A stretch of 64,000 nucleotides of DNA from Sulfuriferula sp. (GTDB taxonomy: Bacteria; Pseudomonadota; Gammaproteobacteria; Burkholderiales; Sulfuriferulaceae). Under the pieces are notes generated by a model. The model did no database searches and was not told the origin of the DNA. It saw only the letters and a program-made list of their open reading frames with translations. Below, piece after piece: positions 18,073 through 28,480 of the stretch; the stretch's first letter is position 1, and each line of letters begins with the position of its first letter. A program made the position numbers and the translations under genes. Location of the stretch: positions 62,001 through 126,000 of the forward strand of contig JABFSE010000001.1 of assembly GCA_013140765.1 (NCBI GenBank), written 5' to 3'.

Positions 18073-18395
18073 TGCAACACCTTAGCCCACAGCAATTAAA
18101 CGTTTGGCTAACCGATACCTCACGCACCCCACCGTTACTATTGGATGTGCGTGAGCTTTGGGAATATCAAATCGCACATATCGCTAATTCACAACTGATG
18201 CCAATGAACACTGTGCTGGAACATATAGACCAGCTACAATCAACCACACCCACTGTTGTCATCTGCCACCACGGGGTACGCAGTATGCACGTTGCTAGGC
18301 TGTTAGCGCACCACCAGTTTACCGACCTCTACAACCTCAGCGGTGGGATAGATGCGTGGGCGCATAGTGTGGATTTAGCTATGGACGTTTATTGA
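18072..18395 (+). CDS. single-domain rhodanese-like protein
   Basis: This 107-residue rhodanese fold protein has the active-site loop CHHGVRS with the catalytic C65, and the N-terminal LLLDVRELWEYQIAHI typical of GlpE/PspE-like sulfurtransferases. It could carry persulfide sulfur; the acceptor is unknown. The start is GTG overlapping the methyltransferase stop by one base. The 3' end overlaps the convergent STAS gene by seven bases. The pairing of a PCMT-like methyltransferase with a rhodanese is common in betaproteobacteria, often before tolC, which is absent here. Confidence 0.9.
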   Translation: MQHLSPQQLNVWLTDTSRTPPLLLDVRELWEYQIAHIANSQLMPMNTVLEHIDQLQSTTPTVVICHHGVRSMHVARLLAHHQFTDLYNLSGGIDAWAHSVDLAMDVY

Positions 18396-19570
18396 CACTT
18401 ACGCGGCACGATAGTCGCCATCTGATCGACACCCATCGTTGTCAATAGCACCCTCACCATCATATTTGCCTCGATAATAACGACTTTTTTACCCAATGGT
18501 ATCAGTGCCATAAAGCTATCCATAAACAAACTGACGCTGGCGAATTCTATCCTGTCAACATCGTGCATATCTAGCTTAACCTCATCGCCCTGCTTCAGCG
18601 CATACTGCTTAAATGCCTCAAACACAGCGGCACTCGCGCTGTTTATTGTGCCTGACATTCTAAATGCAGTACGCTTTTCAGCCCCTTTATCACTCACTGG
18701 TGATGCGGCAATCACGACCACAGCGTGTTTAGGTGCTTCCCACGAAGGCGGTGATAGCTCGAAGTGAACAGCAAACTCCACTGCCAAATCTTCAAACTCA
18801 GCCTGCTTACCTTGTAGCTGGTAGAGTTGCAACAATAACAGCCAGGGCTCAGTGCTCGCGCTATCAGGTTGTTGCGTATAATGTTGCAACAAACTCACGA
18901 ACGCACCGCTGGCTATCTGCAAACTAGCTTGTTGCTTTTGCAATTTAGCGAGTGCCATTTGCAACAACTGCGCCCCTTCAGGCGTGACCTCGGTAATGCC
19001 CGACAAATCTAACTGAATAGCCCCCTTACTAGCGGCCTCTTGCAACAAGCCAATGCGCTCGGCCATCTGCCGGTCTAAACAGCCTTTCAAACTAAATAGC
19101 TGACCTTGCGTGTCCTGTATTTGCTGTGCATCAACGCGTTTAACCAAATGAACTTCAGCACCTGCACGCCAACCTGGTGGTGATTTTTCAAACTGCTGTA
19201 CGTATTCCAATGCTAATTGTTCAAAATCCTGTTTTTGCTGATTCGCTTCATACAAATTAAACAGCAAAAACCAATAAATTTCTTCGCTAGGTACGCTCTG
19301 CAATAATGCCTTAGTGTTATTCACTGCATCAGCCGTGCGCCCGTTTGCATAGAGCATGGCGGCATCTTCAACACCATCAGGAAACTGAGAAACCATCTCG
19401 GTGACTTCTATACTACCGTAGTCCATCTCACTATTAAAACGCTCCACCGTCAATGTGGTGGCGTGTATATCTGCTATCGCCTGCTCCTTCGTTTTAGGTT
19501 TAACCACCTTCACTTCAGGCACAGCGACTGCTTCATTATTTTTACTTTTGAATATGCCGAAAAAATCCAC
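18389..19570 (-). CDS. STAS-domain protein with an internal duplication
   Basis: This is a cytoplasmic 393-residue protein with no signal or membrane segment. Two STAS-like domains are visible, around residues 145-230 (LDLSGITEVTPEGAQLLQMAL) and 300-390 (DMHDVDRIEFASVSLFMDSF). Each is preceded by a helical unit with a shared signature: FEQLALEYVQQFEKSPPGW and FEDLAVEFAVHFELSPPSW. The protein therefore consists of two copies of a helical-plus-STAS module. The start is GTG at 19570 with GGGG upstream. STAS domains often serve as partner-binding switches; the partner is not known here. It is convergent with the rhodanese gene. Confidence 0.8.
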   Translation of the reverse strand: MDFFGIFKSKNNEAVAVPEVKVVKPKTKEQAIADIHATTLTVERFNSEMDYGSIEVTEMVSQFPDGVEDAAMLYANGRTADAVNNTKALLQSVPSEEIYWFLLFNLYEANQQKQDFEQLALEYVQQFEKSPPGWRAGAEVHLVKRVDAQQIQDTQGQLFSLKGCLDRQMAERIGLLQEAASKGAIQLDLSGITEVTPEGAQLLQMALAKLQKQQASLQIASGAFVSLLQHYTQQPDSASTEPWLLLLQLYQLQGKQAEFEDLAVEFAVHFELSPPSWEAPKHAVVVIAASPVSDKGAEKRTAFRMSGTINSASAAVFEAFKQYALKQGDEVKLDMHDVDRIEFASVSLFMDSFMALIPLGKKVVIIEANMMVRVLLTTMGVDQMATIVPRKCQ

Positions 19571-19671: not shown

Positions 19672-20430
19672 TCACCCTAGCCTAGGCAACATTCGACTCA
19701 ACAAGCCGATTATGGCTATCATCCATACGATAACCGCCCCTGAAGGCACGTCATACCAAGCTGACAACACCAATCCCAGCGCGTATCCCGTTGCGCCGAT
19801 AAAATACGCCAGCCATAATGCCGTTTGATTATTTTTACGCTGACGCACCGCCAATGCAGGAATAATTAAGCTGGCAAATACCAAATAAATCCCCACCAAT
19901 TGCACTGACAGCGTAATCGCACTGGCAAATATCAAATAAAATCCCACGCGCCCTAAATGTCGCGCCACCGTTGCTCGCAACACCAGCAACAACAACGTGA
20001 CTGCCGCCGTGACTTGTAGCTGTATCGGTGTCACCCACAGTATTTGCCCGACTAGCATATCTTTCAAATGCTCCGCACCATGCGGATTGCCCGCCATCAA
20101 TATCAGCCCTGCACACGCTGCCAATACAAATGACACGCCGATAATCGCTTCTTGGCTGTCGGGATAGCGCTTTTCTGTCCAAGTAAATCCCATCGCGCCT
20201 ATCGCCGCCGCGCTCAACGCCGCCGACTGCACCGCCCAGCCGTGCGGCTCCCAGCCCAGCGCGTCAGCGACTATCACACCTAAGCCAGCGATTTGCGCGA
20301 TAGCCAAATCAATAAACACGATGCCGCGCGACAATACCTCACGCCCCAATGGAACATGCGTTGCTAACACCAACAGGCCTGCCAATAACGCAGACCAAAG
20401 TATCGCCATATCGAGCGTGGCCGCGTCCAT
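19672..20430 (-). CDS. znuB: metal ABC transporter permease (ZnuB/MntB-like)
   Basis: This 252-residue inner-membrane permease belongs to the ABC-3 family, which imports zinc or manganese. It has about seven to eight hydrophobic segments. Family features are the N-terminal VLSRGIVFIDLAIAQIAGLG and the later VLRATVARHLGRVGF and ATGYALGLVLSAWYDVPSGA stretches. Its ATG overlaps the stop of the binding-protein gene (TAATG), so the two are coupled. It is the last gene of the nine-gene metal cluster. No ATPase gene follows or precedes it, so it must borrow one from elsewhere. The exact metal is not provable from sequence. Confidence 0.85.
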   Translation of the reverse strand: MDAATLDMAILWSALLAGLLVLATHVPLGREVLSRGIVFIDLAIAQIAGLGVIVADALGWEPHGWAVQSAALSAAAIGAMGFTWTEKRYPDSQEAIIGVSFVLAACAGLILMAGNPHGAEHLKDMLVGQILWVTPIQLQVTAAVTLLLLVLRATVARHLGRVGFYLIFASAITLSVQLVGIYLVFASLIIPALAVRQRKNNQTALWLAYFIGATGYALGLVLSAWYDVPSGAVIVWMIAIIGLLSRMLPRLG

Positions 20431-21332
20431 TATTTTGCCGCCTTATCTGCCGCTAACAGGCGACTAATCGTATCATCGAACAAGCCAAACAAATTACTTG
20501 CACCCGCCGTGCCACCCACCGTAAAAGCCAGTACCACCACAGGCAAATTCGTCCGTTGCGCCAACCAGTCAGCTGGGCGTTCGTCGTTATAAGCCGATCG
20601 CACTATCATTTTGGCAGGTGTTTGCTTGATTTTAGCTAACACCGCAGACAAACTAGCCACGCTAGGATCGACACCTGGTTTAGGCTCTAACGTCGCCACT
20701 TGCTTCAGCCCTAGCCAGTTTTCCAGATACGGGTAAGCCTTGTGTTGCACCACGATAGTCGTGCCTTTCAACGGCGCGGCTTGTGTTTCCCAACGACTAA
20801 TTGCGGCCTGCCAACGCAGCTTAAAATCAGCATAACGCGCTTGGTAATACGCACCATTGGTCGCATCTACCGTCGCCAAGGTTTTGCTCAAAGCATCGGC
20901 AACCAGTGCAATGTTGCGTGGATCGGTCTGAATATGCGGATTACCTGCCGCGTGGACATCGCCATCTGCCCGGTCTAATCGCAATGGTTTTTCTAGCATA
21001 GTCACATAGCGAGTCGCTTCAAAATTCCCCGCTTGTCCAGGTTGTATCGCCGCATTACCCGAGTCGCGTAGCAATATCGGCAACCAGCCTATTTCCAACT
21101 CTGCCCCCGTACACACCAGCAAATCGGCATTACGCGCCCGCGCAATCAATGATGGACGCGCTTCGATACGGTGCGGGTCTTGTAGTGCTGTGGTTGCATT
21201 GGACACCTTAACCTTATCGCCACCTAACTCTTGCACCAATGCGCCCCATTCAGGCTCGCACGCCAACACATTCAGCGCGGCATGAGCTGACACACTGCTA
21301 GTAAGTGCTAACATCGCTAATAATAATTTCAT
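20430..21332 (-). CDS. znuA: periplasmic metal-binding protein of a zinc/manganese ABC importer (ZnuA-like)
   Basis: This is a cluster A-I solute-binding protein of 300 residues with a signal peptide (MKLLLAMLALTSSVSAHA). Candidate metal ligands are the histidine of DPHRIE, the histidine of GNPHIQTDPRN, and the histidine of VVQHKAYPYLENW, as in ZnuA-type proteins. It lacks the histidine-rich loop often found in ZnuA, so a shorter subfamily or another metal is possible. It follows the porin-like gene by ten bases and overlaps the permease gene. Confidence 0.82.
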   Translation of the reverse strand: MKLLLAMLALTSSVSAHAALNVLACEPEWGALVQELGGDKVKVSNATTALQDPHRIEARPSLIARARNADLLVCTGAELEIGWLPILLRDSGNAAIQPGQAGNFEATRYVTMLEKPLRLDRADGDVHAAGNPHIQTDPRNIALVADALSKTLATVDATNGAYYQARYADFKLRWQAAISRWETQAAPLKGTTIVVQHKAYPYLENWLGLKQVATLEPKPGVDPSVASLSAVLAKIKQTPAKMIVRSAYNDERPADWLAQRTNLPVVVLAFTVGGTAGASNLFGLFDDTISRLLAADKAAK

Positions 21333-21342
21333 TTTCTAACTC

Positions 21343-22737
21343 CTAAAAAGTGTGTGCGCCGTGTGCGCCTAAGCTGGTGATGTATTGCAACGAGAATTGG
21401 TTGTCGATCTCGGTAGGTCGCGACGCGTCACGCGCATATTGCACGCGGAAACGTGAGTACTCGCTCGGGCTGTAATCCATCATTACGGTATTACGACTAG
21501 GGCTATACGCCGCTAAAATCGGGAAATCTGCCGCGCTCAAACCAGTGCCCAACACCACACTGCCACTACTCATGCTATCGTGGCGTAATCCGACGCGCCA
21601 ATGCGGCATAAATTGATATACCGTTTGCAAATACCAGCCTGATTGCGTTGTTGCCAACGTGCCTGTTGTACTCGTCGCACACCCCGTACAAGTCAAATCA
21701 CCATCCTCGTTACGACGCATATACTCGCCCTGTATCTTCAGGCTATTAACAGTGCTATTACCATTTGGTGCCCATTTCCAGATAAAGTCAGCAATCAGTG
21801 TTTTGCTTTTACCCGAGAACGCATTAGTCGTCGGCGCACCCAGTGCATCGACATCCGTATAACTTCTATCCTGTGCGCCTACCCCTAGGTATGACAAGCC
21901 TGCGCGCCAGCTATTCGACTCATCATAATCGCCACCCACGTGAGCAAACAACGCACCCGCTACACTACCATTTTTATCCTTGGTGGTTGCAGGGAAGCTA
22001 CGCCCACTCCCTATCTCCGCGCCTAGCTCAACTAGCAAGCTGTCCGTTGGTGCTATCCATTTTACTTGCACGCCATCATCGGCAAATTGATTACCGAGGA
22101 ATGATTTATACACCAGCGGCGCATCAGTAAAATCCCAGGCATGGGCGTGTATTTTATTCAAATAACCAATATCAGAATAAAATCGCCCCGCTTTTGCACT
22201 TAGACCATACCCCAATCCCAATGTCTGAATAAACGCGTTTTCTATCCCTACCGTATTATCAGGAGCCATCGCCAACACAAAGTTTCCGCGATAATCAGGA
22301 TCGATATTTGCGCTAATCGCCAACTCGGACTCACCCAATGAGAAACCACGCGCATTCGGCGCAACCTCACCGCCACTAGGGATAAACCCGCCTATGCTAT
22401 AGGTAGAAGGTGAAAGCGAACTATGATTCGCCGTGCCTGCCAAAATCAACGAAATCGCAGGGTTAAACGCGCTTTCGCGGCTAGGTGCAGGTTGTGCGGC
22501 GACAGCAGCGACTTGGCTGGCTAGGTCAGCCTTAGTATCTGCTTGTTCAGCTTTTTTATCGGCTTGCTTAGTAGCCGCTTCGGTTTGCGCTAGACGGGAT
22601 TCAAGTTGCTGAATACGGGCTTCATAGCTCGCTTTCATTTGTTGAATTTCTTGACGTATAGCCGTCAAATCATCAGCCGCATACGCGGGCGTGCCCAACA
22701 TCATCAAGATGCTAGACGTAATTAGAGTACGTTTCAT
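21343..22737 (-). CDS. porin-like outer membrane protein of the metal-uptake cluster
   Basis: This protein has 464 residues with a signal peptide (MKRTLITSSILMMLG...AYA). A coiled coil rich in Q, K and A follows (about 25-85). The remainder is a beta-barrel ending in phenylalanine (GAHTF), the usual outer-membrane sorting residue. The coiled coil before the barrel resembles trimeric porins that bind the wall. The barrel type is that of zinc-regulated outer membrane proteins found beside znu genes. The signal peptide is almost the same as that of the TonB-dependent receptor at 24854-27211, in protein and in codons, and the upstream gene is a DUF2946-like paralogue in both cases. Substrate is inferred from context only. 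Confidence 0.75.
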   Translation of the reverse strand: MKRTLITSSILMMLGTPAYAADDLTAIRQEIQQMKASYEARIQQLESRLAQTEAATKQADKKAEQADTKADLASQVAAVAAQPAPSRESAFNPAISLILAGTANHSSLSPSTYSIGGFIPSGGEVAPNARGFSLGESELAISANIDPDYRGNFVLAMAPDNTVGIENAFIQTLGLGYGLSAKAGRFYSDIGYLNKIHAHAWDFTDAPLVYKSFLGNQFADDGVQVKWIAPTDSLLVELGAEIGSGRSFPATTKDKNGSVAGALFAHVGGDYDESNSWRAGLSYLGVGAQDRSYTDVDALGAPTTNAFSGKSKTLIADFIWKWAPNGNSTVNSLKIQGEYMRRNEDGDLTCTGCATSTTGTLATTQSGWYLQTVYQFMPHWRVGLRHDSMSSGSVVLGTGLSAADFPILAAYSPSRNTVMMDYSPSEYSRFRVQYARDASRPTEIDNQFSLQYITSLGAHGAHTF

Positions 22738-22738
22738 G

Positions 22739-22828
22739 GTAATCCTTGCTTAAGATAGATAAACAGCACGTCACAACATAATGACGTGCAAGTATGTTTA
22801 ACGATTAAGCAAGTACAGGTGGGGCACG
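22739..22828 (-). repeat. upstream module copy A, resembling the region at 27217-27290
   Basis: Both regions run from the end of a DUF2946-like gene to the start of an outer-membrane gene. On the minus strand they share GCCCCACCT, then CTTGCTT, and a leader TTAAGCAAGGATT here versus TTAAGTAAGGATT in the other copy. Copy A also holds a perfect hairpin, GCACGTCA/TGACGTGC (22766-22789). Confidence 0.7.
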
Positions 22829-23119
22829 ACTGAGATAACGACGTGGCTGGGCAAGGCTGACACCCGCGACAATAGACGCAACATAAATTTCCCGAACAGG
22901 GACCAAGACAGGCGTTGCAAACGATAAACCAGGCACGCCATCCAACGCACTGACTACGCACAAATCACATAGCTGCGAATGTGGCGCGGGTGCTTGCTTG
23001 CTACTCCCGCCGTCGTGCCAAGGATGCACCACACCATGCGCCGCGACGAGTTGCTGCGTCCACACCAAAAGCATGGCGAGGATAATAGCAATTCTGGCAA
23101 AATGGCGGCGTGTCAACAT
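22805..23119 (-). CDS. DUF2946-like small membrane/exported protein, copy A
   Basis: This is a 104-residue protein. The ATG at 23119 is preferred over a GTG at 23152, because it puts the hydrophobic segment (IAIILAMLLVWTQQLVA) right after a short basic tail. Possible metal ligands follow: AHGVVHPWHDGG, then CDLCVVSALD. It ends in SRAPPVLA. The paralogue at 27267-27587 has the same plan and ending. DUF2946 proteins are often found in metal-related operons; a role as a small periplasmic metal-binding factor is an inference. It lies between tonB and the porin gene. Confidence 0.7.
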   Translation of the reverse strand: MLTRRHFARIAIILAMLLVWTQQLVAAHGVVHPWHDGGSSKQAPAPHSQLCDLCVVSALDGVPGLSFATPVLVPVREIYVASIVAGVSLAQPRRYLSRAPPVLA

Positions 23120-23167
23120 TTCGTCAGTATAACGGCTAAATGCTATCACCACCAGCCATGCTATGCG

Positions 23168-23818
23168 CTAATCAACATCCATCACCACTTTGACCACTTG
23201 CACCGTAGCGACAGGTTTACCTGCCTGTATCGCAGGGAAAAACCGCCATGTTTTTAAGGTATTCAACACCGATTGATTAACACGCGGATCGGCCGCCGCC
23301 TGTATCAGTGTGACTGTCACGCTACCATCTGCCGCGATATTAAATTGCGCCGTAATAACCGCGTGCATCGCGCTATCACGCAACGCATCAGGCAATTTTG
23401 GCTTAGGCTGATACAGCGCGTGTGCGCCCATACTTTGCGTACCTGCCGATGCCGTATCAGGCGTGGCAGGCAATGGCGGCGTAGCGAGCACTTGCGGCGG
23501 CGCAGGCGACACAGGCGCGACTAATTTAACAGGCATGATGGGGGATGGCGTAGGCGGAGCAGCGGGCGACACTTGCGCTACCGTTGTCTTCACCGCACGC
23601 GTTTTAGGTAGCGGCGCGACGTGCTGTGGTGGTTGCTTGATGATAGGCGGCGGCAATTCCACAATACGCGCATCTAGCGGCGGTGTGGGCACTGGTGTAA
23701 GCGGGTGTGCGCTCACAAAAAAGTGACCAAACACCCATAACAACACTAGCCACAACCCAGTCGCCAATGGCAACGACCAATACTCGCTACGTCGTCCCGC
23801 TATGGCTACGCTACTCAT
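23168..23818 (-). CDS. tonB: energy transducer TonB
   Basis: TonB carries energy from the ExbB/ExbD motor to outer-membrane receptors. The protein has 216 residues from the ATG at 23818; a TTG twelve bases upstream is less likely. There is one N-terminal membrane anchor (about 17-36), a long proline-rich periplasmic linker, and a C-terminal TonB domain (YQPKPKLPDALRD ... TLKTWRFFPAIQAGKP). The start overlaps exbD by eight bases. It is the private TonB of this cluster, presumably paired with the receptor at 24854-27211. Confidence 0.92.
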   Translation of the reverse strand: MSSVAIAGRRSEYWSLPLATGLWLVLLWVFGHFFVSAHPLTPVPTPPLDARIVELPPPIIKQPPQHVAPLPKTRAVKTTVAQVSPAAPPTPSPIMPVKLVAPVSPAPPQVLATPPLPATPDTASAGTQSMGAHALYQPKPKLPDALRDSAMHAVITAQFNIAADGSVTVTLIQAAADPRVNQSVLNTLKTWRFFPAIQAGKPVATVQVVKVVMDVD

Positions 23819-24209
23819 GCGCAACCGCAATCAAAAAGTGTTGCGCACCTGCTACTCGCGCTTGCAACATCGCCTGCACCACCACACCTTGCGGGGCTTT
23901 AGTATCGGCCGAAACCACCAATTCCTGGCTGCTCGATAATTGCGGTTTCAGCACTGCCGCCAAGCTGCTCAAGCTCACTGCCGTGTGGTTCACAAACAGC
24001 TCGCCCGTTGCACTGACGACTAAGGTAACGGGGGTATCCGTCGTCATTTTAGCCGCTTGTCCTTGCGGCAAATTCACTTTAAGCGCATTCAGATTTTGCA
24101 TACTCAACGATGCCAGCATGAACGTTGCTAACAGAAAAAACATCACGTCTATCATTGGGATAATTTCTATTCGCCCTTTACGTTGCACCCGTGCTTTACG
24201 TAGTTTCAT
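23811..24209 (-). CDS. exbD: biopolymer transport protein ExbD
   Basis: ExbD (132 residues) is part of the proton-driven motor for TonB. It has a basic N-terminus, one membrane segment containing the proton-path aspartate in IEIIPMIDVMFFLLATFML, and a periplasmic domain. The start overlaps the exbB stop by four bases (ATGA) and the 3' end overlaps tonB, so exbB-exbD-tonB are translated as a coupled set. Confidence 0.94.
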   Translation of the reverse strand: MKLRKARVQRKGRIEIIPMIDVMFFLLATFMLASLSMQNLNALKVNLPQGQAAKMTTDTPVTLVVSATGELFVNHTAVSLSSLAAVLKPQLSSSQELVVSADTKAPQGVVVQAMLQARVAGAQHFLIAVAHE

Positions 24210-24841
24210 GGCACTACCTGCTGATCAAGCCGAATATGATCGAGCAAGCGCGTGCCTAGCCGCTCCATTTCGTCCATCGTTTGCGCTTGCAAACGGGAGA
24301 AATAATTAAAACCGAACAAGCACACCAGCGCAATCAGCAAACCCACCGCTGTAGCGATTAAAGCCTGCGCGACACCGCCAGTTACGCCGATAGGATTCAC
24401 CAATCCTGCCCCGCCTATGAGCTGAAAAGCGTGCATCATGCCGCCTATCGTGCCCATCAAACCCAACAACGGCGCGGCAGTCACGATAGTTTCCAGCACC
24501 CATAAACGCCGTGACAAACCCGTTTCTATTAACTGCGCCTCATCCGCCGCACGTGATTCTGTCCACCAAGCGGGGTGACTACGGTTACTGCTAATTACGC
24601 TAAAAAATCGGTAAAAGTAATTTTGCTGATTTAAGCTCGATAACTGCTGCTCTAACTCAGCCCAATCAAAATTATAGGTCTCAACCAACTGTTGCAACGC
24701 GCTACTTAACCGCGCATAACGCCAATACAACACAGCTTTTTCCAGCATAATCGCCAATGCCAACACTGCCAAGACCGACAGCGGTATCACCATCACCCCG
24801 CCCAGCTTTAACGCTAACCAACTTTCATGTAAATCTTGCAT
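24206..24841 (-). CDS. exbB: MotA/TolQ/ExbB proton channel protein ExbB
   Basis: ExbB forms the pentameric channel around ExbD. The ATG at 24841 gives 211 residues and has GGAG at the right distance; the longer frame starts at TTG. Three membrane segments are seen: one near the N-terminus and two in the C-terminal half (ETIVTAAPLLGLMGTIGGMMHAF and GVAQALIATAVGLLIALVCLFGF), with the conserved G and T residues of the channel family. It begins 12 bases after the TonB-dependent receptor stop. Confidence 0.94.
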   Translation of the reverse strand: MQDLHESWLALKLGGVMVIPLSVLAVLALAIMLEKAVLYWRYARLSSALQQLVETYNFDWAELEQQLSSLNQQNYFYRFFSVISSNRSHPAWWTESRAADEAQLIETGLSRRLWVLETIVTAAPLLGLMGTIGGMMHAFQLIGGAGLVNPIGVTGGVAQALIATAVGLLIALVCLFGFNYFSRLQAQTMDEMERLGTRLLDHIRLDQQVVP

Positions 24842-24853
24842 CTCGCACTCCAA

Positions 24854-27211
24854 TCAAAAGTATTTATTCACACTAAAATAAACCGTGCGTCGTGGTCCGT
24901 ATTGCGGTGCGCCGACCCCGATACCAGAGCCGTCGCGGATTTCGTAACCCTTATCAAACAGATTCAATAGGCTGACACGTGCCGTTAATTTACCAGCCAG
25001 CTGAGTATGAAAAGTATGTGCAGTAGCTACATTGACTTGCACATAAGCTGGCAAGCTATCGGTATTGGCAAAGCCGCTACGCAAACCACTGCCATACAAT
25101 GCGCTAGCACTGTAGCGCGTATCTTGCCAACGATAAGCCGCGCCTACACTCGCCGTAATCGCCTGATCATGATCCAAATGTACCCAGTTATTGCTGATAT
25201 AAGCTAATTCTGTCGCATCAAAATTATATTGCGACGACACTATATTTTTACCCAACGCCACCGCACGGGCGAGATTGAAATAAGCTGAAAAATCACCCTG
25301 ACGATAATTTCCTGTCAATTCCGCGCCATAAACCTTACCGTCACGATAATTAAACGGCGTGTATAACAAAGCCGAGCCAAACTGTCCCTCATCCAGCAAA
25401 TTCGTGACTTGCTTATAGTAAGTATCCAGCCCTAGGGTAAAATTCGGCGTAAATTGATGGCTTAGTCCCAAATCGTAATAATCTGAAGACTCAGGTTGCA
25501 CCGCGTCGTTCTGAGTGCCTGGAGGCGCGGCTGTTGTACCTTGCGACAAAGCGATTGCCTGACCGCTAATCAGCTCATTAGGCGGTGGTGTAAAATACCG
25601 CGCATAACCCAGATGCACCGTGGTGCTTGGCGTTGCCTGATATACCGCGCCCACACGAGGACTAAGCTGGCTACCCTGCACATATGCGTTTACCTGATCA
25701 AAACGCGCACCGTAATTCAGCGTTAGCTTATCCGTGAGTTTCCATTCATCCTGCACATAAACACCCGCCAGATGGGCTACTTTGCTGTTAATGTCGGTAA
25801 AGGATATAGGCGTGCTACTGGTTTGGGCGTTCGGAGCACCTGGAAACGCTTGCACGTCATTATGATTATCCAACTGCTCTTGACTCACAAACACACCCGC
25901 ACGCAAAGTATGCTGTGGATTCAAATGATAGCTACCATCCGCCTGTACCCCATACGCCATCCCCGTGCGCAGTACTCGGCTTGCCACGCCTGTATAAATC
26001 AAATCGCCCGCCGCGTCAGGGTCAAACAGCACTTTGGTATAACGGTTAAATAAAGCTAATTGATAATCCGCTTTATCGCCTAACGTCCCCTGCAACGCCA
26101 CAATGCCGTAGCGCGTCACTTCATGCTGACGTTCGTTCAAGTTTTGCGAAGGATAAACAGGCACGCCGTTGAGCGTGTAATTTTGGGTGAGATTAGGCGT
26201 GTTCGGAATTTGAAATTGATTGTCGGCATTCCCCAATATCAAGCTCAACCGTGCCGTATCGCTCAATACGTATGAAAAATAGCCAAACTCTTTATGCTGA
26301 TGCGTAGTGTCATGTATGGCAGTGTGGGACGCGGTGGGGTTTTCTATCCCCAAATCACTCGCCTGCGCTGAAGCGTTCAGGTAATAACTAAAATCGCCTT
26401 TATGCCCACTGGTTTCACCCGACAACTCACGCGTATTATCGCTACCAACCCGCATCCCGATACGTCCGCCATTATCAAGCAAGCCGTCTTTGGTATGAAT
26501 ATCCACCACACCAGCAGTGCGATAACCATATTCTGCAGGCAATGCCCCTGTCAGCAAATTCACACTTTGCGCAAAGCGTGTATCCAACGACTGCCCAAAG
26601 CCTGAAATTGATTCAGGGATAATAATATTATTAATCCGATATTGCACATTACCATGATCGCCGCGTATATGCAGTTGCCCATATGAATCCTGCGCGACAC
26701 CTGGGGCTTGTAGCAATACCTGATTCAGCGGTGTGCTTGCACCTTGTGGTAACGCGGCAATATCCTGCGCACTGATGCGATAATTGCTACCTCCCGTATC
26801 CCGCGCAACCGTATTGCGCACAGCGTTACGTTTATGCGCGACCACATCCACTTCTAATGCCGCTTGGCTGGTCAGCGTCAACGTGCTTGTCGCCTGCGTA
26901 TTTGCCGCCAAGCTGACGATGTCTGTGCTGGTCACAAAACCCGCTTTACTCGCCACCACGGCGTATATCCCCGCCGATAAATGCGCCAATACAAAATGCC
27001 CTTGCGCGTCAGTCATCGCAGTTGTTACCGTTTTACCATCCGCCGTTTGCAATACCAGCAACGCATGCGCCAATACTCGCCCTAGCGCATCATGCACTTG
27101 CCCGCTAATGCCACCAGCAGGTGCGATATGTGGCGCGATGAGCGCATCCGACGCATGAGCAAACCCGCCCAGCATGATTAAAATGCTGGACGCAATGAGT
27201 GTCCGTTTCAT
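24854..27211 (-). CDS. TonB-dependent outer membrane receptor with N-terminal carboxypeptidase-regulatory-like domain
   Basis: This is a 785-residue receptor. The signal peptide (MKRTLIASSILIMLGG...HA) precedes a CarboxypepD_reg-like beta-sandwich (about 33-115: GISGQVHDALGRVLAHALL). The plug follows (about 150-260, with QVLLQAPGVAQDSYGQLHIRG) and then a 22-strand-type barrel that ends in phenylalanine (FSVNKYF). The plug opens by TonB action, so the exbB-exbD-tonB genes directly downstream are its likely motor. The substrate is not shown by sequence; the znuAB-like genes in the same run suggest a zinc complex. The N-terminal domain is more typical of Bacteroidetes SusC-type and some proteobacterial receptors. 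Confidence 0.88.
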   Translation of the reverse strand: MKRTLIASSILIMLGGFAHASDALIAPHIAPAGGISGQVHDALGRVLAHALLVLQTADGKTVTTAMTDAQGHFVLAHLSAGIYAVVASKAGFVTSTDIVSLAANTQATSTLTLTSQAALEVDVVAHKRNAVRNTVARDTGGSNYRISAQDIAALPQGASTPLNQVLLQAPGVAQDSYGQLHIRGDHGNVQYRINNIIIPESISGFGQSLDTRFAQSVNLLTGALPAEYGYRTAGVVDIHTKDGLLDNGGRIGMRVGSDNTRELSGETSGHKGDFSYYLNASAQASDLGIENPTASHTAIHDTTHQHKEFGYFSYVLSDTARLSLILGNADNQFQIPNTPNLTQNYTLNGVPVYPSQNLNERQHEVTRYGIVALQGTLGDKADYQLALFNRYTKVLFDPDAAGDLIYTGVASRVLRTGMAYGVQADGSYHLNPQHTLRAGVFVSQEQLDNHNDVQAFPGAPNAQTSSTPISFTDINSKVAHLAGVYVQDEWKLTDKLTLNYGARFDQVNAYVQGSQLSPRVGAVYQATPSTTVHLGYARYFTPPPNELISGQAIALSQGTTAAPPGTQNDAVQPESSDYYDLGLSHQFTPNFTLGLDTYYKQVTNLLDEGQFGSALLYTPFNYRDGKVYGAELTGNYRQGDFSAYFNLARAVALGKNIVSSQYNFDATELAYISNNWVHLDHDQAITASVGAAYRWQDTRYSASALYGSGLRSGFANTDSLPAYVQVNVATAHTFHTQLAGKLTARVSLLNLFDKGYEIRDGSGIGVGAPQYGPRRTVYFSVNKYF

Positions 27212-27216
27212 AATTA

Positions 27217-27290
27217 AATCCTTACTTAAATTAGCAACACGCCAATAAATAGCGTCACGTTGTTATTCAAGCAAGGGTAGGTGGGGCGCG
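27217..27290 (-). repeat. upstream module copy B, resembling the region at 22739-22828
   Basis: This lies between the DUF2946-like gene at 27267-27587 and the TonB-dependent receptor. On the minus strand it shares GCCCCACCT, CTTGCTT and TTAAGTAAGGATT with copy A, and has an imperfect hairpin (CAACGTGACGC with GCGTGTTG) at the place of the perfect hairpin in copy A. Confidence 0.68.
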
Positions 27291-27587
27291 TGAGGTATAA
27301 GGTGTAAAGGTAAATTGCGTTTGACTGCTCACTGGTTCAGCGAATAAGGCAAACGTCGTATCAGTATCAAAATCAAGTACAGCTAACGCCGTCGGCACGT
27401 GATCCAACGCACTGATGACGCATAAATCACATAAAGGTTTATCTGTAGCAGGCGCGTGATGTTGCGCTCCGCCATCCTGAAAAGGATGAATCACGCCATG
27501 CGCGGCAACCAGCAACTGCGTCCATGCCAAGAGCAGAACCAGCATGAGCGCAAATTTAGGATAGCGTCTATAGGTAAACATACCCAT
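27267..27587 (-). CDS. DUF2946-like small membrane/exported protein, copy B
   Basis: This 106-residue paralogue of the protein at 22805-23119 has a short basic start (MFTYRRYPK), a hydrophobic segment (FALMLVLLLAWTQLLVA), then AHGVIHPFQDGG, CDLCVISALD, and the ending SRAPPTLA. The two paralogues share the LCDLCV-ISALD core. It is the first gene of the nine-gene metal cluster and starts 50 bases after rlmJ. No clear Zur or Fur operator was found in front of it. Function is not established; metal binding through the His and Cys residues is an inference. Confidence 0.7.
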   Translation of the reverse strand: MGMFTYRRYPKFALMLVLLLAWTQLLVAAHGVIHPFQDGGAQHHAPATDKPLCDLCVISALDHVPTALAVLDFDTDTTFALFAEPVSSQTQFTFTPYTSRAPPTLA

Positions 27588-27637
27588 AGTCTAAGCGGAT
27601 AAACTGACATCCATCTGACGCAATCAGCGACAGCGCA

Positions 27638-28480
27638 TCAACCCATCGCTTCTAACACAAATCCCGCGCCTTGATCTTGCCCCAACACATTCACTAAATA
27701 GGGCATGACTTTTTTCAGCGTAGCCTGCAACGTCCACGGCGGGTTAATGATGAACATCCCACTGCCGTGCATCCCAAAACCGTCAGCCGACGGCGTGTGC
27801 ACAGCCAAACTCACATTTAACCAAGACTTAGCAGGCACACGCTTGAGCGCTTCGACAAAATGCTGCGACTCATGGCGTTGCAGTTGCGGATACCACACTG
27901 CGTAAGTGCCCGTTTCAAAGCGTTTGAGCGCATCTTTGAGTGCCGCAGGGACGCGCTGATAGTCTTGCTTTTCTTCATATGGCGGGTCTATCAACACCAT
28001 GCCGCGACGCGGTGCGGGTGGGAGCACGGATTTCAAGCCTGTAAAACCATCGATAGCCTGTATCCTCACACGCCGCCCTGCACGGGCAAAATTTTCATTG
28101 AGTAATTGGCTATCAGTCGGGTGTAATTCAAACAGTTTCAATTGATCCTGACTGCGCAATACCTGCATCGCCACCCACGGTGAGCCTGGGTAAATTTTCA
28201 ATGTGCCATCAGGATTCAAGCCGCGTACCAGTGCCACATACTCAGCCAAAGCCACAGGCAAATCTTCACGCGCCATTAGTCGCGCAATACCACTTTGAAA
28301 CTCAGCATTCTGCGTCGCATAACCGCTATCCAGCGCGTACAAGCCCGCGCCAGCATGGGTATCTATTGCCCAGTATGGCTTATCTTTTTGATTAAAATGC
28401 TGCAAAATTTGCAACTGCACAAAGTGTTTTAACACATCGGCATGATTGCCAGCATGAAAGGCGTGACGGTAACTCAACAT
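27638..28480 (-). CDS. rlmJ: 23S rRNA (adenine(2030)-N6)-methyltransferase RlmJ
   Basis: RlmJ methylates A2030 of 23S rRNA. The 280-residue protein starts with the family hallmark MLSYRHAFHAGNHADVLKH and carries the N6-adenine methyltransferase motif IV DPPYE in GMVLIDPPYEEKQDY. Length fits the family. It is divergent from sbcB (107-base gap) and just upstream, on the same strand, of the metal cluster, though it is unlikely to share function with it. Confidence 0.95.
   Translation of the reverse strand: MLSYRHAFHAGNHADVLKHFVQLQILQHFNQKDKPYWAIDTHAGAGLYALDSGYATQNAEFQSGIARLMAREDLPVALAEYVALVRGLNPDGTLKIYPGSPWVAMQVLRSQDQLKLFELHPTDSQLLNENFARAGRRVRIQAIDGFTGLKSVLPPAPRRGMVLIDPPYEEKQDYQRVPAALKDALKRFETGTYAVWYPQLQRHESQHFVEALKRVPAKSWLNVSLAVHTPSADGFGMHGSGMFIINPPWTLQATLKKVMPYLVNVLGQDQGAGFVLEAMG

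Follow-up and report, generated by a model that had tools for sequence, protein, structure and literature searches.

The locus lies within a window of 64,000 nucleotides (the whole stretch of Sulfuriferula sp. DNA analysed here) and is a zinc-uptake operon with the order uORF1-TonB-dependent receptor-ExbB-ExbD-TonB-uORF2-porin-ZnuA-ZnuB. The operon is compact and all of its members are on the minus strand, as are the motifs, pairing strands, hairpins and C-rich stretches located below. The first upstream open reading frame, uORF1 (27267..27587), encodes a peptide with an export signal, an HxxxH motif, a CDLC motif and a C-terminal SRAPPTLA just before the stop codon; the start used in congeners corresponds to the codon of M3 (27581). 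It is followed by genes for a TonB-dependent receptor with a carboxypeptidase-regulatory-like N-terminal domain (24854..27211), ExbB (24206..24853), ExbD (23811..24209) and TonB (23168..23830). The second, uORF2 (22805..23119), has the same parts (export signal, HxxxH, CDLC, C-terminal SRAPPVLA, stop) and precedes genes for an outer-membrane protein (21343..22737), a ZnuA/AztC-like zinc-binding protein of an ABC importer (20430..21332) and a ZnuB/AztB-like permease (19672..20430). The outer-membrane protein, called the porin here, has no Pfam family and an HGAH C-terminus; its AlphaFold model (pLDDT 84) predicts a barrel with an N-terminal coiled coil, and the folds nearest to it are OprP, OprO, DcaP and OmpT. 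The two barrel genes begin at 27211 and 22737, leaving gaps of 55 nt (unit 1) and 67 nt (unit 2) after the respective uORFs.

Around this core, no ABC ATPase gene adjoins the ZnuA-ZnuB pair (20430-19672), and nowhere in the genome was a ZnuC found near the NCBIfam cut-off (best score 105 bits vs. 306). In all congeners ZnuB is followed by a gene for a STAS-domain protein (18389-19570 here), an arrangement seen more weakly in locus L023, and several loci have an HslU-like gene next. Upstream of uORF1 lies RlmJ (27638-28480); in four congeners it is a COG0523/CobW GTPase gene that is directly upstream. A -10-like TATACT (23126..23131) lies 6 nt ahead of the uORF2 start codon, and a hexamer of this kind (TATACT or TA[AG]ACT) occurs 6-7 nt before the start codon of all ten uORFs of the genus (23126-23131 and 27588-27593 here, and loci L019-L022). 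Family-wide, the hexamer shows a peak 6-7 nt before the uORF start (25/111). Such an element would make the uORF transcripts near-leaderless and would give uORF2 its own promoter.

The initial annotation had described a unit consisting of a small gene, a leader and the start of an outer-membrane gene as occurring twice, and both copies are indeed present on the minus strand (uORF1 at 27587-27267, uORF2 at 23119-22805). The local nucleotide score between 27620-27100 and 23150-22600 was 88, compared to no more than 38 for shuffled sequences and no more than 33 for 440 other stretches of the window. Identity between the units is 65% in the uORFs, 74% in the gaps and 73% in the first 22 codons of the barrel genes; past about 22 codons there is no conspicuous similarity (59%, with many gaps in the alignment), in agreement with the earlier view that the barrels differ in type. 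The signal peptides of the two barrels share 15 of 20 residues (score 64), well above the best of 245 N-termini used as unrelated controls (score 37), from which the units' own congeners were set apart; their similarity thus exceeds that of random signal peptides. The double arrangement also exists in four Sulfuriferula congeners, with the copies about 4.5 kb apart. In a tree, the ten uORF1 and uORF2 sequences of the genus form one group apart from all others (94/99 support); it should be noted that bootstrap resolution is limited here, due to the shortness of the alignment. In genome G013 the two copies pair as sisters (99/97), a pattern suggestive of gene conversion. The receptor-linked uORF of locus L124, from another family, clusters with the uORFs that precede the porin in its own family (100/96), and the signal peptide of its receptor is a different one, suggesting that copying of the unit has occurred more than once. 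The duplication of the units is real, and the comparison supports a duplicated segment made up of the uORF, the gap and the signal-peptide start, set before barrels of different type.

Both window uORFs have a CDLC motif, then 43 residues, RAPP, three residues and the stop codon. The putative metal ligands of uORF1 are H30-x3-H34 (codons at 27486..27500), invariant in A1 and A3, and C53-x2-C56 (27420..27431); those of uORF2 are H28 and H32 (23024..23038) and C51 and C54 (22958..22969). The RAPP codons, at 27279..27290 in uORF1 and 22817..22828 in uORF2, form the predicted site of ribosome arrest, the motif at which CruR also arrests (PMC12992588). Only these two among the ORFs of at least 40 aa in the 64 kb end in R[AG]PP, and both carry it within about 10 residues of the C-terminus, as in RAPP-type peptides (RAPP/RGPP). 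The frame is common with CruR. As a correction to the DUF2946 label of the initial annotation, matches to the Pfam family (PF11162) score 15.4 and 15.8 bits, under the gathering cut-off of 23.7. In an alignment of 36 sequences, which takes in only members with CxxC, the invariant residues are H30, H34, C53, C56, R100, P102 and P103; conservation is confined to HxxxH, CxxC, RxPP and the signal peptide.

In the sensor part, two features separate these zinc-linked uORFs from classical DUF2946 sequences. HxxxH is present in 110/114 of them vs. 1/27 classical ones, in a first sample that the seed alignment skews towards HxxxH, and the classical xCTA cysteine is found in 0/114 vs. 22/27. The CxxC-to-RAPP spacing, on the other hand, is 43-46 residues in both groups, a range that includes both window copies. 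In a set collected from the porin side, HxxxH was called in 62/69 uORFs; six of the remaining seven carry it ahead of the scanned stretch, missed because the start was chosen too late, leaving one true exception. CxxC is absent from 24 of these 69, with other Cys/His arrangements in its place. Among porin-linked uORFs, those of L225, L227, L238, L243, L248 and L275 have CxxH or other Cys/His spacings while keeping HxxxH and RAPP/RGPP, possibly natural variation of a metal site. A His2Cys2 set and its variants would suit zinc. The AlphaFold model of uORF1 (36 sequences), a poor one with a pLDDT of 68, showed no metal site.

A profile built from 15 members gave matches in 120 of the 399 genomes searched from the order and in 24 of 369 from the class, and neighbourhoods were drawn from 100 genomes, giving 118 uORFs for analysis; the whole-genome statistics rest on searches plus individual genome stretches. 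A porin gene follows 84 of the 118 (72 of them with ZnuA and ZnuB), a window-type receptor follows 8, and about 19 precede ZnuD-like receptors. Seventeen of the latter fall in one similarity cluster, for which the best NCBIfam match in three tested was 'zinc piracy ZnuD', under the model's cut-off; those beyond the cluster were recognised by reading frames. The zinc-uptake protein ZrgA is downstream at two loci. Starting from the porin, a uORF was directly upstream in 69/76 loci. In the same order, classical DUF2946 genes stand before genes for the copper chaperones PCuAC and SCO1 and for other receptors. The two types can share a genome, and in two cases lie within 4.5 kb of each other.

Several such uORFs can occur in one genome. 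G168 has three of the zinc type (loci L129, 1-6806, and L105), which precede porin-ZnuA-ZnuB, a window-type receptor, and ZrgA followed by an ABC ATPase gene. In L095 (6204-7291) and L088, a classical copper-type DUF2946 uORF is found about 4.5 kb after the zinc-type one and precedes a 195-aa protein (AHGFAGKRFFPTTL...) that has no Pfam match; a similar protein comes after the classical uORF of L193.

These neighbourhoods bear directly on the nature of the signal. In Bordetella pertussis, copper binding to the CxxC of CruR, a DUF2946 uORF (Roy et al. 2022), relieves arrest at the C-terminal RAPP, and Rho then ends transcription before a TonB-dependent receptor gene (PMC9426467); later in vitro work demonstrated the arrest at RAPP, with the P and A sites occupied by the two prolines (PMC12992588). 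RAPP arrest and control by Rho are thus known for this relative. The window uORFs might simply be ordinary CruR, sensing copper and governing an outer-membrane pair related to copper, in which case the zinc genes would be incidental neighbours. They have the same C-terminal frame (CxxC, 43-46 residues, RAPP), CruR uses CxxC as its copper motif (PMC9426467), and classical CruR also precedes receptors. However, the neighbours here are ZnuA-ZnuB, ZnuD-like receptors, ZrgA and CobW, whereas classical DUF2946 genes stand before PCuAC, SCO1 and other receptors; HxxxH has been added and the xCTA cysteine is missing, and the two types can coexist in one genome, twice within 4.5 kb. In B. pertussis, moreover, zinc had little effect on the BfrG protein. 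We therefore consider the copper reading unlikely, and zinc the likely signal for the units described here.

The end of each uORF is predicted to pair with the Shine-Dalgarno (SD) sequence of the gene that follows. In unit 1, the last codons and stop of uORF1 (anti-SD 1, 27265..27276) pair with the SD strand of the receptor gene (27220..27231) and, in unit 2, anti-SD 2 (CTTGCTTAA, 22805..22813) is a perfect complement of the SD strand of the porin gene (TTAAGCAAG, then GA; 22745..22753). Put in terms of the two copies, the last codons CTTGCTTAA and CTTGCTTGA are complementary to the SD regions TTAAGCAAGG and TTAAGTAAGG, the second via G-U pairs. In fold predictions, the tail/SD helix of both copies closes an inner hairpin (27235..27262 in gap 1, 22760..22800 in gap 2), and the whole folds have z-scores of -4.7 and -5.4, respectively, with 0/200 shuffles as stable in either case. 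The words that the initial annotation had noted as shared between the gaps are indeed shared, but CCCCACCT and CTTGCTT belong to the last uORF codons (RAPP, then Leu-Ala) rather than to the gap, and TTAAG(C/T)AAGGATT is the SD region of the barrel gene. The words common to both copies pair with one another, CTTGCTT with AAG[C/T]AAGG.

This complementarity extends across the family. When the SD was scanned against 18-nt windows of the uORF in 114 members, the duplex energy was about -7.4 kcal/mol, falling to between -10.9 and -12.2 only at the uORF end. Native tail/SD pairs bind better than swapped ones (z -14.7, 114 sequences); the effect persisted for 59 uORFs less than 45% identical (z -13.6, or z -8.2 when swapping within GC strata), and native codons were favoured over synonymous ones (mean z -1.1). 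The SD is paired with the uORF tail in the MFE folds of 92/114. With a ribosome arrested at RAPP, the partner of the SD core is mostly 9-15 nt past the first nucleotide of the P-site codon, which is inside the usual footprint of a ribosome stalled in the manner of CruR's. The pairing is weaker ahead of ZnuD and ZrgA genes (13/23 above background), where start codons are also less certain, and at classical DUF2946 loci the peak is no more than slight. Counting pairs in a fixed register within the genus gave modest covariation, and RNAalifold picked the inner hairpin, not the SD helix; since bulges shift the register of the helix, which accounts for both results, we relied on the register-free swap test on divergent members in place of the fixed-register count. 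No known RNA family was found for the element. Taken together, the data make it highly likely that the tail/SD helix exists and is under selection.

As for transcription termination, the gap-2 hairpin was listed as an intrinsic terminator on both strands and was rejected, being inside the SD fold and having no good T-run; sites of this kind were only moderately more numerous than in shuffled sequences. The uORF ends are C-rich and G-poor, resembling Rho sites: ranked against windows at 15-33 kb, the stretch at 27275..27352 (C minus G of 19 in 78 nt) is in the top 0.1% and that at 22783..22860 in the top 0.8%. The excess of C over G at the uORF end also rises across the family. A C>G stretch marks Rho sites in CruR, and its occurrence here suggests that closing of the SD may be combined with termination by Rho.

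We hold it very likely that the units are arrest-peptide switches. What they respond to could be export capacity: a SecM-like monitor, in which a uORF with a signal peptide stands ahead of large outer-membrane proteins, comes nearest to the earlier view of the cassette, and the combination of N-terminal export signal, C-terminal arrest motif and SD-sequestering helix is the SecM layout (PMC12992588). Export monitors, however, do not need a conserved His/Cys set, the genes downstream are for zinc uptake with no Sec/YidC genes among them, and the CruR export signal can be replaced with regulation kept (PMC9426467); we judge this reading to be slightly less probable still than the copper one. It is more improbable again that the uORF product is a working periplasmic zinc-binding chaperone or storage protein, merely co-transcribed with the barrels, the RNA pairing only lowering basal translation, since the signal peptide, the His/Cys ligands and the length of about 80 residues after export, which would fit, are outweighed by conservation limited to HxxxH, CxxC, RxPP and the signal peptide, by the co-variation of anti-SD codons and SD, and by the behaviour of CruR, which acts only in cis and is unseen in proteomes (PMC9426467).

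We propose instead that each unit acts as a translational switch that responds to zinc and is based on an arrest peptide, a proposal that we hold to be probable on the whole. The uORF would be translated and, where zinc is scarce, its C-terminal RAPP would stall the ribosome over the codons just past RAPP, which otherwise pair with the SD of the next gene. With the anti-SD codons covered, the SD would be free and the downstream gene made: the zinc receptor from unit 1, the zinc porin with ZnuA-ZnuB from unit 2. Where zinc is plentiful, it would bind HxxxH and CxxC as these motifs, some 44 residues back along the nascent chain, emerge from the exit tunnel, and the resulting folding would relieve the arrest, so that uORF translation is completed and the SD closes; Rho probably then ends the untranslated message. 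The direction of the switch, with zinc relieving the arrest and turning the genes off, is proposed by analogy with CruR and seems a little less secure than zinc as the signal. What the sequence itself shows is the anatomy of the units, their duplication, the complementarity with its covariation, the zinc-gene context and the conservation of ligands; that zinc is the ligand and relieves the arrest, that the stalled ribosome occludes the pairing codons, and the direction of the switch are inferred. The unit was duplicated inside the genus along with the beginning of the porin signal peptide, which would give one operon two gauges. That the small ORF matters for making the outer-membrane protein, as first proposed, is supported. 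The notion of an expression/secretion cassette or helper protein is not; the RAPP end, the SD-sequestering last codons, the conserved His/Cys ligands and the zinc-uptake neighbours in about 100 genomes all point to a cis-acting, metal-sensing nascent peptide.

Control of zinc uptake could also be transcriptional, given that a Zur-like repressor is encoded elsewhere in the genome, beside another COG0523 gene. No TGTTATNNNATAACA-like Zur box was found in the window, and only 2/112 regions upstream of the family uORFs contained a Zur box. The genes are those of the usual zinc importers under Zur control (ZnuABC, ZnuD, ZrgA); the difference is that Zur acts on transcription and that few Zur-like boxes stand before these uORFs. 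More broadly, we lean towards the view that the HxxxH/CxxC arrest uORFs are a widespread family of zinc-sensing nascent peptides in the Burkholderiales and related Gammaproteobacteria, controlling zinc porins, ZnuA-ZnuB, ZnuD-like receptors and ZrgA by exposing or hiding the SD, having been copied between importers of the same genome and either supplementing or replacing Zur.

If true, a zinc counterpart would suggest that a nascent-chain sensor switches metal by adding a His pair while the arrest frame is kept, and might explain the lack of an evident Zur box in many of these zinc-uptake operons. It would also give a likely role to a conserved, unnamed porin beside ZnuA. The anti-SD in the last codons is a precise and mutable RNA element, making the mechanism directly testable. 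To our knowledge, there is no earlier zinc-responsive leader-peptide switch. A search of the openly accessible literature turned up no zinc version of this uORF class, and nothing on the association with zinc importers, on the HxxxH subclass or on an anti-SD formed by the final codons of such a uORF. CruR, CutF and the RAPP arrest peptides are already known; what would be new is a branch for zinc, the mechanism having until now been described for copper. According to Roy et al., copper and zinc have no known riboswitch, and CruR was the first uORF found to respond to a transition metal (PMC9426467).

Several known systems resemble the units in part. SecM, ApdA and ApdP share the C-terminal RAPP/RAGP arrest and, in SecM, a stalled ribosome opens an SD helix (PMC10987492, PMC12992588); here too, by prediction, the SD is sequestered by RNA that a stalled ribosome would cover. 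These peptides monitor Sec/YidC export, whereas the conserved N-terminal part of the window uORFs is a metal-ligand set and the gene downstream is not one of the export machinery.

The resemblance to CruR includes a short ORF that carries an export signal, a CxxC some 44-45 residues ahead of RAPP, a stop codon three residues after RAPP, a position upstream of a TonB-dependent receptor and a C>G stretch at the uORF end. The window uORFs share its CxxC-RAPP spacing and C>G stretch, but differ in their zinc-uptake context, the extra HxxxH, the lack of the xCTA cysteine and a DUF2946 match below the cut-off. The gap is 55-67 nt here vs. 162 in CruR, there is a co-varying SD-sequestering helix, of which we found no mention in the CruR paper (PMC9426467), and there are two copies per operon, uORF2 being internal, whereas CruR is the first gene of a copper-related operon. 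With several of the defining features of CruR thus missing, the units should not be filed as CruR itself.

CutF, a DUF2946-like protein of Rhodobacter capsulatus, is likewise a nascent metal sensor, and a stem-loop shields the SD of the next gene (PMC9973294). It has CxxxC and a proline-rich end and depends on its signal peptide; a 2023 survey of CutF-like proteins suggested nickel or cobalt for some of them. In the units described here the anti-SD is inside the uORF's own last codons and the expected logic is off with zinc, whereas CutF, a relative working in the opposite direction, turns its gene on with copper (PMC9973294).
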